In this document: positions 43,868 to 54,108 of the stretch, piece after piece | Numbering within the stretch: the stretch's first letter is position 1 | How the letters are laid out: every line of letters begins with the position of its first letter | Assembly: GCA_019748195.1 (NCBI GenBank) | Contig: JAIEPW010000079.1 | Location: 1-64,000 of the forward strand | Direction of reading: 5' to 3' | DNA from: Bryobacteraceae bacterium | GTDB lineage: Bacteria; Acidobacteriota; Terriglobia; Bryobacterales; Bryobacteraceae | DNA: 64,000 bases | Position numbers and translations under genes: made by a program | The notes under the pieces: generated by a model | Told to the model about the DNA's origin: nothing | The model's database searches: none | Seen by the model: the letters and a program-made list of their open reading frames with translations, nothing else

Positions 43868-44609
43868 GTTCGGGGACGGTCACCTCATTTTCCTCCGGGC
43901 TCCCCTCAGCGATTCGGGTAACTTCAACCTCCCGCGCGACTTGCCTTCCGCCCCGCCCCGCCCTCTTCCGCCGAGCCTCAATCCGAAAAGTCCTCCTCAA
44001 TCCGCTGCAGCCACTCTTCACGGCCCAACGGCAGCCCGAGCGCCGTCGCCTCACGAATCCGCTGCAGCATCGCCGCATCTGCTAAACCCAGCTCTCTGGC
44101 GTGTACCGTTGCCGCCACCGCACCAGGTCCAGAAGGCCGTTCCGCAAGTGCGCCTGTGCCTAATCGGGCTCTCTGCGGATTTTGCTCGACATAAACCATT
44201 GCCGCCCGGAAATGTTCTTCATCCATTGGAACCGATTGAAAACGAGCCTGAAACAGGTGCCCCTTGCGGCGCAGCCGCACGTGGATCGCCCGCGCATAGT
44301 CCCCGTGGAGCCGGCGAAATAGCCGCCCCAGAGCTTGCTCGTTCCGCGGGACCAGAATCAGGTGGACATGGTTGGGCATAAGGCAATATCCGAGGATAGC
44401 CACGCCGTAGTGCCGGGCATACTCGGCGAGCAAGTTCAAGTAAAGGCGATAATCTTCGGAGCGGAAGAAAATCTTCTGTCGATAATTACCCCGTTGGGTG
44501 ATATGGTGGGGAAGGCCAGGGATTACAATGCGCGCAACGCGGGGCATACCAGGAAGTGCGATCCACGCCAGATTCCTCGCAAGGGAAATGAGGCGACTGT
44601 CCCGCGAAC
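43868..44609 (-). mobile_element. RAYT element with inverted ends
   Basis: The RAYT gene is flanked by GTTCGGGGACGGTCACCTCA (left, 43868) and, on the other strand, GTTCGCGGGACAGTCGCCTC (right end, 44609), a near-perfect inverted pair of about 26 bases. Left end to gene stop is about 110 bases; gene start to right end about 36 bases. The right end directly abuts the Rhs fragment at about 44610. Inverted REP-like flanks are typical of RAYT units. Confidence 0.75.
43978..44547 (-). CDS. REP-associated tyrosine transposase (Y1/HUH)
   Basis: This is a 189-aa single-strand transposase. MPRVARIVIPGLPHHITQRGN is the family start, MPNHVHLILVPR (about 57-68) supplies the H-x-H metal motif, and YVEQNPQRA (about 118) carries the catalytic tyrosine. 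Compared with partial copies nearby, residues about 128-148 are read out of frame between two small deletions that restore the frame later, and the usual W-S-S region is missing, so activity is doubtful. It is expected to cut and paste REP-like hairpins. Confidence 0.85.
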   Translation of the reverse strand: MPRVARIVIPGLPHHITQRGNYRQKIFFRSEDYRLYLNLLAEYARHYGVAILGYCLMPNHVHLILVPRNEQALGRLFRRLHGDYARAIHVRLRRKGHLFQARFQSVPMDEEHFRAAMVYVEQNPQRARLGTGALAERPSGPGAVAATVHARELGLADAAMLQRIREATALGLPLGREEWLQRIEEDFSD

Positions 44610-45502
44610 GCCATCAGTACGACTCCTTGAAGCGCCTGATCTCCGCGACGGCTTCGGGTTCCATGACTTTGGCGCAGACCTATGGCTATGACGGGTTCGG
44701 CAATCTGTTGTCGAAGACCGGGTCCGGCAATGGCGGCGGTGGCGGTCCGGTCAGCGCCAGCTACCTGATCAACCCGGCGACGAACCGGCCCTTCAGCGGC
44801 CACACCGCCGCCGGACTGCCAACGAGCGGCGGTTTTGACAACGACAATCGGATGATCTCGACGCTATCCACGTCCGGCTATTCGGAGTACTTCGCCTACT
44901 CGCCCTCTGGCAAGCGGGTGTGGAACCAGGGCATGCGGCCCATCGATCCGTTTACGGAAGAAACCGTGCAGGAAGTCTGGTTCTGGAGCCCGCAGGGCCA
45001 GCGGCTCGCCCAAGTGGGCGCGCCCGTGTTCGCCTTCAAGGAAGCGAACCTGTATCACGGCGGCAAGCTGGTGGGCCAGTACAACAGCGCCGGAGCCCAC
45101 GTCTTGAAGACCTCCGACCGCCTCGGCTCCTTCGGCAAGTACTACCCCTACGGCGAGGAGCGCAATCCCACCGGCGCATCGGGCGAAAAGTTCGCAACAT
45201 ATTTCCACGACAATGTCGTGGGCCTGAACTACGCCGACCAGCGCTGGCACGCCAACTCCGGCCGCTTCCTCACGCCCGACCCCTACCAGGCCAGTGGTGG
45301 TCCTTCCGACCCGGGTGATACTAAGTTCCGTCCTCTGCGGGGGAGGAGATGTTTTGTGAATACCGAGACAAATGAAGTGTGGTGTCGGGACAGAGACCAC
45401 GGCGATCATTGGGAAGTGTACAAGAAGGAGAAAGACTTGGACTACAGAGATAGGCGCCATCGCGCAGTCTGGGACAGTGGTTGTATCCGCCAACGCTTTT
45501 AG
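44588..45502 (+). CDS. Orphan Rhs C-terminal fragment with toxin tip
   Basis: Rhs sequence begins at HQYDSLKRL (about 44609), straight after the RAYT right end, so the N-terminal two thirds of the protein are gone. It contains YGYDGFGNLL, FDNDNRMIS, YSPSGKRVW, the hyperconserved GLNYADQRWHANSGRFLTPDPY that closes the shell, and a 66-residue tip rich in charged residues with DRDHGDHWEVY. This D-x-x-H-G-D..E pattern resembles the active site of colicin E3-type cytotoxic ribonucleases. The ATG at 44588 lies within the RAYT end, so expression is uncertain. Confidence 0.7.
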   Translation: MRRLSRERHQYDSLKRLISATASGSMTLAQTYGYDGFGNLLSKTGSGNGGGGGPVSASYLINPATNRPFSGHTAAGLPTSGGFDNDNRMISTLSTSGYSEYFAYSPSGKRVWNQGMRPIDPFTEETVQEVWFWSPQGQRLAQVGAPVFAFKEANLYHGGKLVGQYNSAGAHVLKTSDRLGSFGKYYPYGEERNPTGASGEKFATYFHDNVVGLNYADQRWHANSGRFLTPDPYQASGGPSDPGDTKFRPLRGRRCFVNTETNEVWCRDRDHGDHWEVYKKEKDLDYRDRRHRAVWDSGCIRQRF

Positions 45503-45516
45503 GAGGCTGTAGACTG

Positions 45517-45822
45517 ATGAACGAAGATCCGCTAGAGCATCGGCCAATTCAGTTGAACATGAAATTGCTGCCAAAGATTGACCCGGAGGATCACGGTCCA
45601 GGCACCATTAAGATTGAAGGGGATGCACAGTCCTTACAATATCTTGTGGATAGGATAACCGCTCTTCTTCAAGAGGATGACTGCGGTGTGCACTTGATGG
45701 TTGAACTCGGGATCTTTACCGACGACACACAGTATGATCTTTACCTTCATCGGCTCCCTTGCATCAACGATATCTTGCGGGACCGCGCTCGTGAGCAAAG
45801 TCAAACCGAGGACGGAAAATGA
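45517..45822 (+). CDS. Candidate immunity protein for the Rhs tip
   Basis: This is a 101-aa acidic protein starting 14 bases after the Rhs stop with an AGGAGG ribosome binding site. About 21 Asp/Glu against 10 Lys/Arg fits an inhibitor of a basic nuclease tip. No recognised immunity family. Small acidic genes immediately after Rhs/CdiA toxin tips are usually the cognate immunity, so this is assigned by position. It ends at the start of the third RAYT copy. Confidence 0.6.
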   Translation: MNEDPLEHRPIQLNMKLLPKIDPEDHGPGTIKIEGDAQSLQYLVDRITALLQEDDCGVHLMVELGIFTDDTQYDLYLHRLPCINDILRDRAREQSQTEDGK

Positions 45823-48358: not shown

Positions 48359-49186
48359 ATGGGTCCTCAAGCAGAGCAGCCGAAGCTGCCTATCCCCGGC
48401 GTCCAGAACCTGATCGCGATCGGTTCGGGCAAGGGCGGCGTCGGAAAAACCACCGTTTCCGTGAACCTCGCCATCGCGCTGTCCCAGATGGGTCATCGCG
48501 TCGGGCTTCTCGACGCGGACGTGTACGGTCCGAACGTGCCGCTCATGATGGGCATCCACGAGACTCCGAAAGCCATCGGCGAACGCATCCAGCCGCTCGA
48601 GAAATACGGCGTCACGCTGATGTCCATGGGCTTTCTGAATCCGGGGGACCGCCCGCTGATCTGGCGCGGACCCATGCTGCACAGCGTCATTCAGCAGTTC
48701 TTACGATCGGTGGATTGGGGCGAACTGGAGTATCTGCTCATCGATCTTCCCCCCGGAACCGGGGACGTTCAGCTTTCCCTGATCCAGACGGCGCCGCTGA
48801 CGGGCGCGCTGGTGGTCACCACGCCGTCCGACGTCTCGCTCGAGGACGCGCGTAAAGCCGTGAACATGTTCGGTCAGGTGCGTGTTCCCGTACTCGGCTT
48901 GGTGGAGAACATGAGCTACCTGATCGTGCCTTCCACGGGCGAAAAGCTCGACGTTTTCGGCACCGGCGGCGGGAAGCGGACCGCCGAGGCGATGCAGATT
49001 CCATTCCTGGGCGAGTTGCCGCTGGACCCGCAGGTGCGCGTCGGCGGTGACTCCGGCTCCCCGGTGGCGATCCACGGGGAACAGGACGATCGCGCCGAGG
49101 GTTTCTTCCGTATCGCCCGCAGCGTCGAGGAACGCGCCGCCGAGTCGCGGGGAGCGAAGAAGCCGACCATCGAAATCGCCGATTGA
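48359..49186 (+). CDS. mrp: Mrp/ApbC-family P-loop ATPase (Fe-S carrier type)
   Basis: This is a 275-aa protein. The deviant Walker A GKGGVGKTT (about 24-32), DADVYGPNVPLMMG, LLIDLPPGTGD and a C-terminal LVENMSY..FGTGGG segment identify the Mrp/NBP35 family, which loads Fe-S clusters onto apo-proteins. The usual C-x-x-C after NMSY is absent here (VPST instead), so cluster binding by the standard mode is not expected. It lies between fumC and the regulator operon without an apparent shared operon. Confidence 0.88.
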   Translation: MGPQAEQPKLPIPGVQNLIAIGSGKGGVGKTTVSVNLAIALSQMGHRVGLLDADVYGPNVPLMMGIHETPKAIGERIQPLEKYGVTLMSMGFLNPGDRPLIWRGPMLHSVIQQFLRSVDWGELEYLLIDLPPGTGDVQLSLIQTAPLTGALVVTTPSDVSLEDARKAVNMFGQVRVPVLGLVENMSYLIVPSTGEKLDVFGTGGGKRTAEAMQIPFLGELPLDPQVRVGGDSGSPVAIHGEQDDRAEGFFRIARSVEERAAESRGAKKPTIEIAD

Positions 49187-49275
49187 TTGACTGAGTCAAG
49201 GAATTTTGGTTGACGTAGTCAACTATCTTAGACCTCAAGTACCGTCTTGACAAAAGAACTGGTCAAGAGCATAAT
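49187..49275 (+). promoter_or_regulatory. Promoter with three palindromic operators
   Basis: Three inverted repeats share the arms TTGAC/GTCAA: TTGACTGAGTCAA (49187-49199), GTTGACGTAGTCAAC (49209-49223) and TTGAC..10 bases..GTCAA (49247-49266). The third overlaps a strong promoter: TTGACA at 49247-49252, 17 bases, CATAAT at 49270-49275. Transcription would begin near 49282-49283, at the GTG of the regulator gene. The arrangement suggests autorepression by the regulator. Confidence 0.6.
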
Positions 49276-49282
49276 CGACTGC

Positions 49283-49900
49283 GTGATCCCTCTCCAGGTC
49301 ATTCAGTCGCCCGAGGTCGCCTCCGTTCTCCTGAAGCCGGAGCGCCTCAAAATGCTCGAATTCCTGCGCGAGCCTGACAGCGCCACCGGCATCGGCAGGA
49401 AGATGAACCTCGCCCGTCAGTCGGTCAACTACCACCTGCGGGACCTGGAAAAGCATGGTCTGGTTCGATTTGTCGAAAACCGGACCAAGGGCAACTGTGT
49501 CGAACGGGTGCTGCAGGCGACGGCGCGCAGTTACGTCGTGTCGCCGGCGGCTCTCGATCGCCTGGGGCAGGATCCGGAAACCCTTCGCGACCGCTTCTCC
49601 TCGGCCTATCTGGTCCAGGCCGCGGCGGCGGCAATCCAGGAAGTGACACGTGCGCGGGAGCGCGCCGGCGAGGCAGGGAAGCCGATCGCGACCCTCACGC
49701 TCGAAGCCGACATCCGCTTCCGCAGCGCCGAGGAGCGCGCCAGCTTCGCCGAGGAGCTCACCGCATCCATCGCGGCGCTGGTAGCGAAGTATCACAGCGA
49801 CAGTGCGGCAGACGGGCGGACCTTCCGCCTGCTGTTGGGGTCGTATCCGAAACTCAGCGAACCGGCCGGGCCCGCGGCGGCCACGGTCAATCTGGAGTAA
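49283..49900 (+). CDS. ArsR-like winged-helix transcriptional regulator
   Basis: This is a 205-aa protein starting at GTG 49283. A TTG 36 bases upstream in the same frame is rejected because it is the -35 box of the promoter. Residues about 10-75 form the winged helix (LLKPERLKMLEFLREPDSATGIGRKMNLARQSVNYHLRDLEKHGLV), with the recognition helix in ARQSVNYHLRDLE. The C-terminal 110 residues are helical and unassigned. Gene pairs of ArsR-like regulator and AHSA1-like protein are common and usually self-regulated. It probably binds the operators upstream. Confidence 0.8.
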   Translation: MIPLQVIQSPEVASVLLKPERLKMLEFLREPDSATGIGRKMNLARQSVNYHLRDLEKHGLVRFVENRTKGNCVERVLQATARSYVVSPAALDRLGQDPETLRDRFSSAYLVQAAAAAIQEVTRARERAGEAGKPIATLTLEADIRFRSAEERASFAEELTASIAALVAKYHSDSAADGRTFRLLLGSYPKLSEPAGPAAATVNLE

Positions 49901-49905
49901 TCAAC

Positions 49906-50673
49906 ATGGAACAAGCGGTAATGCCGGTGGAGAAGCGCGCGCACGAAACCGTAATCGAAATCGACGCGAGCATCCAGGACGTTTGGCGGGCAATCACGGA
50001 TCCGGAGTGGATCTCCAAGTGGTTCGCCCCCGTGATGAAAGTCGAGCCCGGCGCGGGCGGCTACATGATCGCCGACTGGGGTCCGGGCATGGAGTGGAAA
50101 ACCATGATCGAGGCCTGGGAGCCGGAGCGGCGGCTGACCACCGCCGAGACCCGCGACCGCGTCTTCGCGCCGGTGGACGCCGACAAAATGCAGCCCTGCC
50201 GTCTGGTTCAGGACTGGACGCTGGAATCGAAGGACGGTCGCACGGTGCTCCGCCTGGTCCATTCCGGCTTCGGCTCGGGGGACGGCTGGGATCATGAATT
50301 TGAAGGCACGCGCGAAGGCTGGCGCGGGTGCTTCTTCCGCCTGAAAACCTGGATGGAGGGACACCGCAACGACAGCGTCCACAACCGCATCGTCACCCGC
50401 CTGTGCCCCGGTCTGGAGCCCGAAGCGGCGCTGGCGCGAATCGAGCCGGAAGCGGGTCCCCTGCGCGTGCACATGCGGGACCGCCTGCACCTGTGCGGCA
50501 CGGTGCCCGAATGGAACGGAGGCATCCTGAACATCTCCGTGCAGCGCGTCGCCTCCGGCGCGATGGCCTACGCCGAGACGGTGCTCTACGGCATGACGGA
50601 CGAGCGCGCTTCGCGGATCGAGCGGTTGTGGTCCGACAAGCTGTCCAAACTTTTTCCGGAGAGGGCCGCATGA
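49906..50673 (+). CDS. SRPBCC/AHSA1-like protein
   Basis: This is a 255-aa cytoplasmic protein. KRAHETVIEIDASIQDVWRAITDPEWISKWFAP is the first strand and helix of the SRPBCC (Bet v1-like) ligand-binding fold, with VLRLVHSGFGSGDGWDHEFEGTREGWRGCFFRLKTWME the long C-terminal helix; a second, less clear copy occupies residues about 155-250. It starts six bases after the regulator gene and overlaps the next gene by four. It probably binds a hydrophobic ligand. The function is unknown. Confidence 0.8.
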   Translation: MEQAVMPVEKRAHETVIEIDASIQDVWRAITDPEWISKWFAPVMKVEPGAGGYMIADWGPGMEWKTMIEAWEPERRLTTAETRDRVFAPVDADKMQPCRLVQDWTLESKDGRTVLRLVHSGFGSGDGWDHEFEGTREGWRGCFFRLKTWMEGHRNDSVHNRIVTRLCPGLEPEAALARIEPEAGPLRVHMRDRLHLCGTVPEWNGGILNISVQRVASGAMAYAETVLYGMTDERASRIERLWSDKLSKLFPERAA

Positions 50674-52113: not shown

Positions 52114-54108
52114 ATGCGAACATTGATTCCTCAAACATTGACAGCAGTGTTGTTTGTAACTGCAATCCACGCGGATGATAGGATCATTCCTAATCCAACC
52201 CGAGTCCACCTGCTTCCTAAATGCCTAGTCAACCCGCCTCGCAGCGCCACCTCCGCTGGACGGATAGCTGAGGCGCTGGCGGGGATCTTCGTGCCGAAGT
52301 TGATCGAAGCCGGACTCCAGGGGGTCGGCGGCGCTCTTAAGAAAGCCGGCGAGGTCGCCAGGACGCAAGCTATTGGCGTCGCGACTACGGATATGTACGT
52401 CAGCAACCCGCTCGCACAACTTTCGCCCGCGCCTTTTGGCTGTGTTGTGGCATTTGTTGAGGGGTCTTCCAGAAACGAGGGCTCTTATCATGAAACGACA
52501 AAAGCCGCAATCCAAGCGCTGCGACGGGCCGAACTGCTTCCCGACCAAACTGCGGCTCTCTGGATCTGGGAAGCTTCCGTACTGCCGTCGGACGATGGAA
52601 CGTCGATTCAGCTCGATACGACTCACTTGTCGGTAGCGGAGTTCCTCGGAGGGCGCGGAAACGAACGTGAGTTCGTAGTTTCGCTCGCTGTCGCAACACC
52701 CAACTCCACAGCTGACGGGGAGACGATCGCATTCGGCAACATCAACATGGGCAAGATTCGGCGCAATGAGCCGTGGCAACCGCAGGAGCGCGAATTCCGC
52801 CGCAGCAATCTGCTTCCTTGGGAAAAGATCTCGGACTTGTCCTTGGCAGTCTGGAAGCAAGATGCTGAAGCCGGGGTCGGCGCCCGCCGCTATATGCCCG
52901 CGACCGTGTCGGTTACGCTCACCGAGACCGATAATGGCAACGCCTTCCTGCGCAAATTGGGCGAGGTCCTGTCGGGCACCAGCTCTGACACGGCAAAGGT
53001 ACTGACCAGCGCTGTCTTGCCCAGGCCGCGTAAGGAACGCAGTGCCGCAGAAGAACTCGAAGGAGAAAAGCTCATCGCAGCGGAAGAAGAAGCCTGGATC
53101 GCCTATCTCAAGGCCGGGGAGGCTGTTGCTGGGGCAAGAGCGAACTCACAACCGTTGGGCGCGTTGATAGCTGACGAGGAAGCGAAGAAGCGCGCTTGGG
53201 AGAGAGCGACTCGACTGCTGAAAGCGGCGGGCGGCGAGCCGCCACGACGCATCCCGCCTGAGCCCCCTCGTGCCCTCGCCCCTGTCGGAACTGCCGAAAG
53301 CTCCGAGTCGGGAAGCCGCTCCGTCGAGTCCGGCCCGCGTTCAGAACTGTCGCCTTTGACTGCGGGCCGGGTCGAACAGAAGATCATCGGCGGCAAACCC
53401 GCCGAGCCCGGGGCCTGGCCGTGGCAGGTGGCACTGATCGATGCGCTTGGAGGGCATCAATTCTGCGGCGGGACACTCGTCGCTCCAAGGTGGGTCCTGA
53501 CGGCGATGCACTGCATTGCAGGTAAGTCCGAGGACCGAATCTTTGTTCGTGTCGGCGTAACAGACCTGAGAGATCGAATGGCCGGGGCTTGGCGTAACGT
53601 TGTTGCTTTCGAGAGGAATGCTCAGTTCAATCCGAAGAACCTCGACATGGACGTAGTGCTGTTGAAGCTGGCCAATGACGTCACACCTGCCGAGGGGGTT
53701 CAGTTCGCGGAATTTGTGAAGTCGGACGAAGAAACCGCCCTTCAGGTGGCGGGTCAGCCGGTCACAACGATCGGTTGGGGTCGAACCTCCCCGAATGGGC
53801 CGACTTCGCCGATTCTACGGCAAGTGGAAGTTGCCATCACAAACTTCAAAGAATGTCTTGCTACTTACGCCAATCCAAATCTTCCAGAGATCTACCGAGT
53901 AACGGAAAATATGATGTGCGCTGCGCGACCGCAGCGTGATTCCTGCGGAGGCGACAGCGGTGGACCACTCGTTGTCAGAACGGATAACGGAATCCGGCAG
54001 ATCGGAGTGGTGAGCAAGGGAAGGGAATGTGCGCTCGAAAACTTCCCGGGAGTTTATACTCGGGTCGTCCCAGCCTTGGAGTGGATCAAAGAAACAACCC
54101 AGCGCTAG
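52114..54108 (+). CDS. Secreted trypsin-fold (S1A) protease with large N-terminal extension
   Basis: This is a 664-aa protein. A signal peptide (to about residue 20) is followed by about 400 residues of unrecognised sequence, including a helical segment rich in Lys/Glu (about 320-370) and a Pro/Ser linker (about 375-415). The protease domain starts at IIGGKPAEPGAWPWQVAL (about 424): His in TAMHC (about 465), Asp in LDMDVVLLKL (about 513), Ser in SCGGDSGGP (about 614). Asp six residues before the Ser (RDSCGGDSGG) predicts cleavage after Lys/Arg. A zymogen-like activation before IIGG is likely. Confidence 0.85.
   Translation: MRTLIPQTLTAVLFVTAIHADDRIIPNPTRVHLLPKCLVNPPRSATSAGRIAEALAGIFVPKLIEAGLQGVGGALKKAGEVARTQAIGVATTDMYVSNPLAQLSPAPFGCVVAFVEGSSRNEGSYHETTKAAIQALRRAELLPDQTAALWIWEASVLPSDDGTSIQLDTTHLSVAEFLGGRGNEREFVVSLAVATPNSTADGETIAFGNINMGKIRRNEPWQPQEREFRRSNLLPWEKISDLSLAVWKQDAEAGVGARRYMPATVSVTLTETDNGNAFLRKLGEVLSGTSSDTAKVLTSAVLPRPRKERSAAEELEGEKLIAAEEEAWIAYLKAGEAVAGARANSQPLGALIADEEAKKRAWERATRLLKAAGGEPPRRIPPEPPRALAPVGTAESSESGSRSVESGPRSELSPLTAGRVEQKIIGGKPAEPGAWPWQVALIDALGGHQFCGGTLVAPRWVLTAMHCIAGKSEDRIFVRVGVTDLRDRMAGAWRNVVAFERNAQFNPKNLDMDVVLLKLANDVTPAEGVQFAEFVKSDEETALQVAGQPVTTIGWGRTSPNGPTSPILRQVEVAITNFKECLATYANPNLPEIYRVTENMMCAARPQRDSCGGDSGGPLVVRTDNGIRQIGVVSKGRECALENFPGVYTRVVPALEWIKETTQR

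Follow-up and report, generated by a model that had tools for sequence, protein, structure and literature searches.

The gene for an ArsR-type regulator in the window (the whole stretch of 64,000 nucleotides, or 64 kb, that was analysed) is preceded by three palindromes built from the same TTGAC/GTCAA arms, which raises two questions: where its message and its protein begin, and whether all three palindromes are read by the regulator itself. A preliminary description answered that the message is apparently leaderless and that the regulator probably represses it. The analysis presented here favours, with a probability of roughly three in four for the explanation as a whole, an arrangement with two regulators, in which a leaderless arsR-AHSA1 operon would be self-repressed through the palindrome nearest the gene and the other two palindromes would form a tandem operator for a MarR-GNAT protein encoded on another contig of the same genome. 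The control region (positions 49187-49290) and its flanks comprise the following features:

48359-49186, plus strand: gene for an Mrp/ApbC-type Fe-S carrier ATPase (mrp; PF10609, E 2.9e-95), with the stop codon TGA at 49184-49186
49187-49199, no strand: palindrome 1, TTGAC-TGA-GTCAA (TTGACTGAGTCAA), distal half of the predicted MarR-GNAT tandem operator
49210-49222, no strand: palindrome 2, TTGAC-GTA-GTCAA (TTGACGTAGTCAA), proximal half of the predicted MarR-GNAT tandem operator
49245-49268, no strand: palindrome 3, TCTTGAC-N10-GTCAAGA, spanning the -35 box and predicted to be the ArsR-type regulator's operator
49247-49266, no strand: core of palindrome 3, TTGAC-N10-GTCAA, read directly from the letters
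49247-49252, plus strand: -35 box TTGACA, from the letters, the promoter score and the homolog comparison
49270-49275, plus strand: -10 box CATAAT, separated from the -35 box by a 17-base spacer
49281-49283, plus strand: predicted transcription start, at or beside the GTG, placed from the position of the -10 box (distance from -35 box to start codon kept in 47 of 52 homologs)
49283-49900, plus strand: ArsR-type (HTH_20) regulator of 205 aa when counted from the GTG at 49283-49285 (Pfam PF12840, E 1.9e-08, read from the TTG at 49247)
49906-50673, plus strand: AHSA1 (Aha1-like, SRPBCC) protein, probably in the arsR operon (Pfam PF08327, E 3.4e-14)

The palindromes, the TTGACA and the CATAAT ending at 49275 can be read directly from the letters as first described, and one palindrome, the third, does cover the -35 box. 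The gaps, given earlier as 9 and 23 bases, measure instead 10 bases between palindromes 1 and 2 and 24 between palindromes 2 and 3, 23 being the exact distance between the centres of palindromes 1 and 2. Palindrome 1 is directly abutted by the mrp stop codon, and the tandem formed by palindromes 1 and 2 lies 61-96 bases 5' of the GTG, without overlap of the arsR promoter. The two kinds of site differ in architecture, palindromes 1 and 2 being arranged in tandem with an N3 centre and palindrome 3 having an N10 centre, and their conservation also differs. The promoter TTGACA-17-CATAAT scores 11/12; the 1.1 kb scanned contain two promoter-like sites, this one included, against an average of 0.1 in shuffles, and no terminator-like site was found in 48900-50000 (shuffles, mean 1.0).

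On the minus strand, a weaker promoter-like match at 49225-49253, TTGTCA-17-TAAGAT (9/12), is directed from arsR toward mrp, and its start would fall near palindrome 2. Elsewhere in the window, inspection by eye discloses (i) an ORF at 44498-45822 that combines YD/Rhs-like repeats with a variable tip, then a short overlapping ORF at 45481-45822, the two resembling an Rhs-type end and its possible partner gene, and (ii) an ORF at 52114-54108 comprising a long N-terminal region and then a trypsin-like serine protease part (IIGGKPAEPGAWPWQ...GDSGGP).

The leaderless GTG start, as the preliminary description proposed, is well supported by comparison of the regulator's homologs. Upstream DNA was examined for 52 of these, the own gene included, and all 52 of the 45-base upstream stretches differ; G060, G117, G074 and a second piece of G012, being contig ends or fragments, stand outside the counts. 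The start codon was taken near the conserved N terminus, with identical candidate starts in the matched shuffles; start positions in the alignment were chosen by hand, and the aligned first residue is no evidence. A TTGACA-like -35 box (at least 5/6 letters) stands 34-40 bases 5' of the start codon in 47 of the 52 homologs, against 562 of 10,400 matched shuffles (5.4%), and at 34-37 bases in 39 of 52 (318 of 10,400 matched shuffles; 225 of 10,400 in a less closely matched shuffle control), a count that tests the distance of the -35 box, the -10 letters varying among homologs. The five misfits are L089, L104, L107, L113 and L114. A Shine-Dalgarno-like 4-mer at the usual place occurs in one of the 47 homologs with the layout, the set scored for it out of the 52, and is absent in the own gene, where the -10 box ends 7 bases before the GTG, inside the 5-8 bases taken to define a leaderless start.

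This distance of 7 bases is also why the TTG at 49247 is in frame with the GTG, and the frame between them is open, which invites a different account: a leadered message from a promoter further upstream, a protein that starts at the TTG, and a TTGACA/CATAAT that is coincidental coding sequence. Of the 47 homologs that share the layout, 19 likewise possess some in-frame start further upstream; the remaining 28 have none, so that for these the leaderless start is the sole one. By eye, no Shine-Dalgarno-like letters precede the TTG, and neither the promoter score nor the conserved distance to the start codon speaks for coincidence. We judge the leadered message very unlikely and the longer protein unlikely, in line with the earlier remark that this TTG is the -35 box itself.

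Self-repression of the ArsR-type regulator through palindrome 3, its predicted operator, is well supported too. The position of the palindrome over the -35 box argues for it, and, with the -35 box taken as left arm, 24 of the 47 layout-bearing homologs match the partner arm at 5/7 positions or more (517 of 23,500 in permuted controls) and 12 of 49 homologs scored match it at 7/7, as in the perfect TTGACAAATTAATTTGTCAA of L069. The 20-base palindrome is absent in 23 of the 47, many of which display by eye a different inverted repeat, ACCGA...TTCGGTG-like, around the same leaderless promoter; at least two forms of operator thus appear to exist in the homolog family. Also by eye, such a repeat replaces TTGACAA...TTGTCAA in L065, L076, L091, L093, L096, L097 and others.

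The regulator contains a single Cys and no ELCxC-like motif, which we take to be the metal-binding motif of ArsR/SmtB proteins, and on that basis it is called motif-free; its 205 aa exceed the usual length of ArsR proteins. The best PDB match of its profile is PH1932. At E 1e-20 or better, a profile from seven homologs has matches in 47 of 200 family genomes, the own one among them, and in 31 of 76 genera; a search of the genome-contig collection with the protein returned no relative. Downstream, an AHSA1-like ORF follows in 28 of the 29 homologs with at least 1 kb of downstream DNA, own included, the exception being L068. Gene order, absence of the metal motif and patchy distribution (47 of 200 family genomes) are those of ArsR-COG3832 (Aha1) pairs.

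Palindromes 1 and 2 are the only exact copies of TTGACNNNGTCAA in the window. With one mismatch the window holds 4 matches against 1.26 expected, a count equalled in 4 of 100 shuffles, so that single near-matches alone are little proof. In the genome from which the window comes, a 5.83-Mb draft in 154 contigs, exact TTGACNNNGTCAA occurs at 26 sites (reversed control, 13), and eight of these form four pairs, each with a 23-base distance between centres. The 36-base tandem is found in 4 exact copies and in 6 at up to 3 mismatches, against 0 for the reversed pattern. Besides the window, the copies lie (i) on C42, exact, beside a CocE-type hydrolase gene and a MarR-GNAT gene; (ii) on C46, exact, between the 3' ends of a convergent gene pair whose products resemble, by eye, DinB and thioredoxin, the DinB-like one matching no NCBIfam model; (iii) on C101, exact, beside divergent enoyl-CoA hydratase and methyltransferase genes; (iv) on C134, with 1 mismatch, beside a GGACT-family gene and a tRNA-Val; and (v) on C50, with 2 mismatches, beside a short ORF and an ADOP permease gene. 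According to a simple ORF caller, none of the six pairs is inside a long ORF; those on C42, C101 and C50 overlap the 5' end of a called ORF (on C50, one of 70 residues that begins within the pair), and the others are intergenic. The 17 unpaired exact sites have no partner of more than 7/10 letters within 60 bases, and 16 of them are inside ORFs by the same caller. The exception, a single exact TTGACAAAGTCAA at L063:1001-1013 (C153), overlaps the last 4 bases of a called ORF and is possibly a further target.

One MarR-GNAT fusion gene was found in the own genome (E 1e-30 or better), the one on C42, and the tandem there overlaps its start codon, with the 23-base period of the window. In a collection of 84,980 genomes, exact tandems elsewhere are carried by ten contigs, four of them just upstream of a MarR-type gene in unrelated bacteria: a full MarR-GNAT fusion lies downstream in Desulfovibrio, Sinanaerobacter and Peribacillus, and in Victivallales the frame consists of the MarR part only (152 aa). 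The other six, and one viral match, are not at MarR genes. The MarR part of the own fusion is nearest to PDB chains named 'multidrug resistance operon repressor', presumably MexR, and its GNAT part retains an R-x-x-G-x-G loop, RGLGIG, which we assume to be the acetyl-CoA loop. From these comparisons, the TTGACNNNGTCAA tandem is best read as a pair of predicted operators of this MarR-GNAT protein. Contig C42 also holds a second pair of ArsR and AHSA1 genes (L042:5034-5924), convergent with the MarR-GNAT gene; among 42 MarR-GNAT loci scanned, with short flanks, no other had an ArsR-AHSA1 pair beside it.

The preliminary reading, that all three palindromes are ArsR operators, for which the shared TTGAC suffices and the extra sites strengthen self-repression, draws on the TTGAC/GTCAA common to all three and on their position within 82 bases of one gene. 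The arms, however, are 3 bases apart in palindromes 1 and 2 and 10 in palindrome 3, and none of the 51 other ArsR homologs carries the tandem in its upstream DNA (300 bases scanned, fewer at contig ends), the best of them matching 14/20 letters against 20/20 here. Nor was an ArsR gene seen beside the tandem on C46, C101, C134 or C50, and the same tandem is found at MarR-GNAT genes elsewhere. We consider it unlikely that one regulator reads all three sites, and the earlier interpretation is partly supported, or half right: conservation in relatives, which had been named as a check, supports self-repression through palindrome 3, by way of its arms, and gives no such support for palindromes 1 and 2.

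A further possibility is that the tandem is a low-copy repeat or a structural element (mobile hairpin, terminator or segregation site). It is palindromic and could fold, several copies adjoin gene ends, and the C46 pair between convergent 3' ends, where a promoter is unexpected, counts against an operator. Against this, the copies differ in centres and spacers and are thus not recent copies, and the tandem recurs at MarR-GNAT genes of unrelated bacteria; we hold a repeat or structural element to be quite unlikely. An RNA hairpin or terminator was rejected separately, the centres of the two palindromes not fully pairing in most copies by eye and no terminator-like site being found in 48900-50000. 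An operator of PadR/ADOP type, prompted by the ADOP permease near the C50 pair, was dropped when the pattern matches led to MarR-GNAT genes; two proteins of the own genome pass the ADOP permease family cut-off, and such permeases are typical of Acidobacteria.

The assignment of the tandem to the MarR-GNAT protein was also followed through homologs collected by protein, with the motif unused and the four genomes found by motif left out. Matches were obtained in 27 of 396 genomes of the phylum and 28 of 200 of the family (own in both, some partial) and in 69 plasmid records, of which 9 were picked for taxon spread; the scan omits L122 (too little upstream DNA), the partial matches L132-L136 and L139-L141, the second rows of G455, G370 and G581, which have no locus, and the family rows G077, G110 and G056. 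A pair was defined by a period of 21-23 and at least 16/20 letters and a single site by at least 9/10, thresholds fixed after first looks. Pairs occur upstream of 8/20 phylum, 12/26 family and 2/9 plasmid homologs (shuffles, at most 0.03%) and single sites upstream of 8/20, 20/26 and 4/9 (shuffles, at most 0.5%); 12/20, 14/26 and 7/9 homologs fall below the pair threshold. By the same definition the window pair has 20/20 specified bases and period 23, and family-wide support is partial. Some of the homologs below threshold display the same symmetry with half-sites TTGTC, TTGCC or TTGCT, as if the operator letters had changed along with the protein. At L126-L130, L138 and L142-L144, the upstream palindromes read TTGTC...GACAA (or close to it) or TTGCT...AGCAA.

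In the clear pairs of family and phylum homologs the period is 21 or 22; it is 23 at the own MarR-GNAT promoter and in the other exact pairs of the own genome, and this common period ties the window pair to that protein. A search of 120 other family genomes, with up to 1 mismatch allowed, found no 23-base tandem, which is no counter-evidence because the MarR-GNAT pairs of the family have periods 21-22. At up to 2 mismatches, the tandem with period 22 is present in 5 of 17 genomes (G160, 5 copies; G171, 4; G115, 2; G068 and G510, 1 each) and with period 21 in 6 of 16, one copy each, all controls being 0; some of these matches are MarR-GNAT promoters themselves, and among 11 loci looked at, six (L191-L193, L197-L199) fall within ORFs. 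With 3 mismatches allowed, 6 of 11 MarR-GNAT genomes contain the 21-base tandem, the reversed control also matching in 4 of these 6; given these control matches and the ORF-internal loci, no regulon is claimed in relatives.

Taken together, the two-regulator explanation would operate as follows. A sigma-70 promoter, TTGACA-17-CATAAT, would place the 5' end of the message at the GTG (49283) or no more than a few bases away, and the ArsR-type regulator would be made from this leaderless mRNA; its dimer would then bind palindrome 3 over the -35 box and repress its own arsR-AHSA1 operon. The MarR-GNAT protein encoded on C42 would bind palindromes 1 and 2 as a pair of adjacent dimers with a 23-base separation, and would thereby add a second control layer, the operon being one of a small set of MarR-GNAT targets. 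The effect of this protein at arsR is the least certain part: it may block transcription entering from mrp or may activate, a block being slightly more likely. The conserved arrangement suggests that a leaderless start and an operator over the same promoter can be kept together across many genera, which would make the starts of transcription and translation one control point.

A broader proposal, for which the chances appear evenly divided, is that TTGAC-N3-GTCAA and its half-site variants, often in pairs 21-23 bases apart, constitute a general operator code of MarR-GNAT proteins across phyla, and that the own protein, via its acetyltransferase part, couples an acetylatable or acyl-CoA-linked signal to a leaderless, self-repressing ArsR-Aha1 stress module. 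If true, the code would make MarR-GNAT regulons readable from sequence. The tandem would provide a sequence handle on the targets of these fusion regulators and would link one such regulator to an ArsR-Aha1 module.

Neither the ArsR-AHSA1 operon type nor MexR-type sites are new; the novelty is the predicted operator assignment for MarR-GNAT proteins, for which no operator or motif appeared among the literature matches listed, a set covering few subscription papers. Leaderless genes, as characterized in the available part of Zheng et al. 2011 (PMC3160421), have their -10 element some 12 bases 5' of the start codon and no Shine-Dalgarno sequence, and were found in three of three acidobacterial genomes at a mean of 13.3% of genes; arsR resembles them in both respects, and the mechanism itself is thus not new. 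The difference is that the layout is followed here through one regulator family along with its operator (compare PMC3160421).

For the gene pair, the accessible portion of Makarova et al. 2009 (PMC2701414) places ArsR-COG3832 pairs among toxin-antitoxin-like two-gene modules, with a preference for seeing them as resistance modules over true toxin-antitoxin systems, and counts 9 of them in Solibacter usitatus. The operon shares with these modules an ArsR-type HTH gene beside an Aha1/AHSA1 gene, the missing metal motif and the patchy distribution, and differs in its probably leaderless promoter, its predicted operator and its predicted second regulator, none of which is described in that portion (PMC2701414).

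Among MarR-type regulators, PA3458 resembles the predicted binder in family and in having a partly palindrome-like ChIP-derived motif, TTTCAGTTGGAAGCA (PMC8070244); that motif differs from TTGACNNNGTCAA, and a GNAT fusion is not described in the accessible part of the source (PMC8070244). A further likeness concerns MexR, whose site, as given in the available text, is GTTGA-N5-TCAAC in two copies at mexA (PMC5063474). Shared with it are the TTGA-N5-TCAA core, the two neighbouring sites and the MarR-type DNA-binding domain of the predicted binder; palindrome 2 fits the MexR site fully, and palindrome 1 has A and G as its outer letters (PMC5063474). In contrast to MexR, the predicted binder here is a MarR-GNAT fusion, the inner positions are invariably C...G, neighbouring sites are spaced by 21-23 bases, and the target genes are others (PMC5063474).
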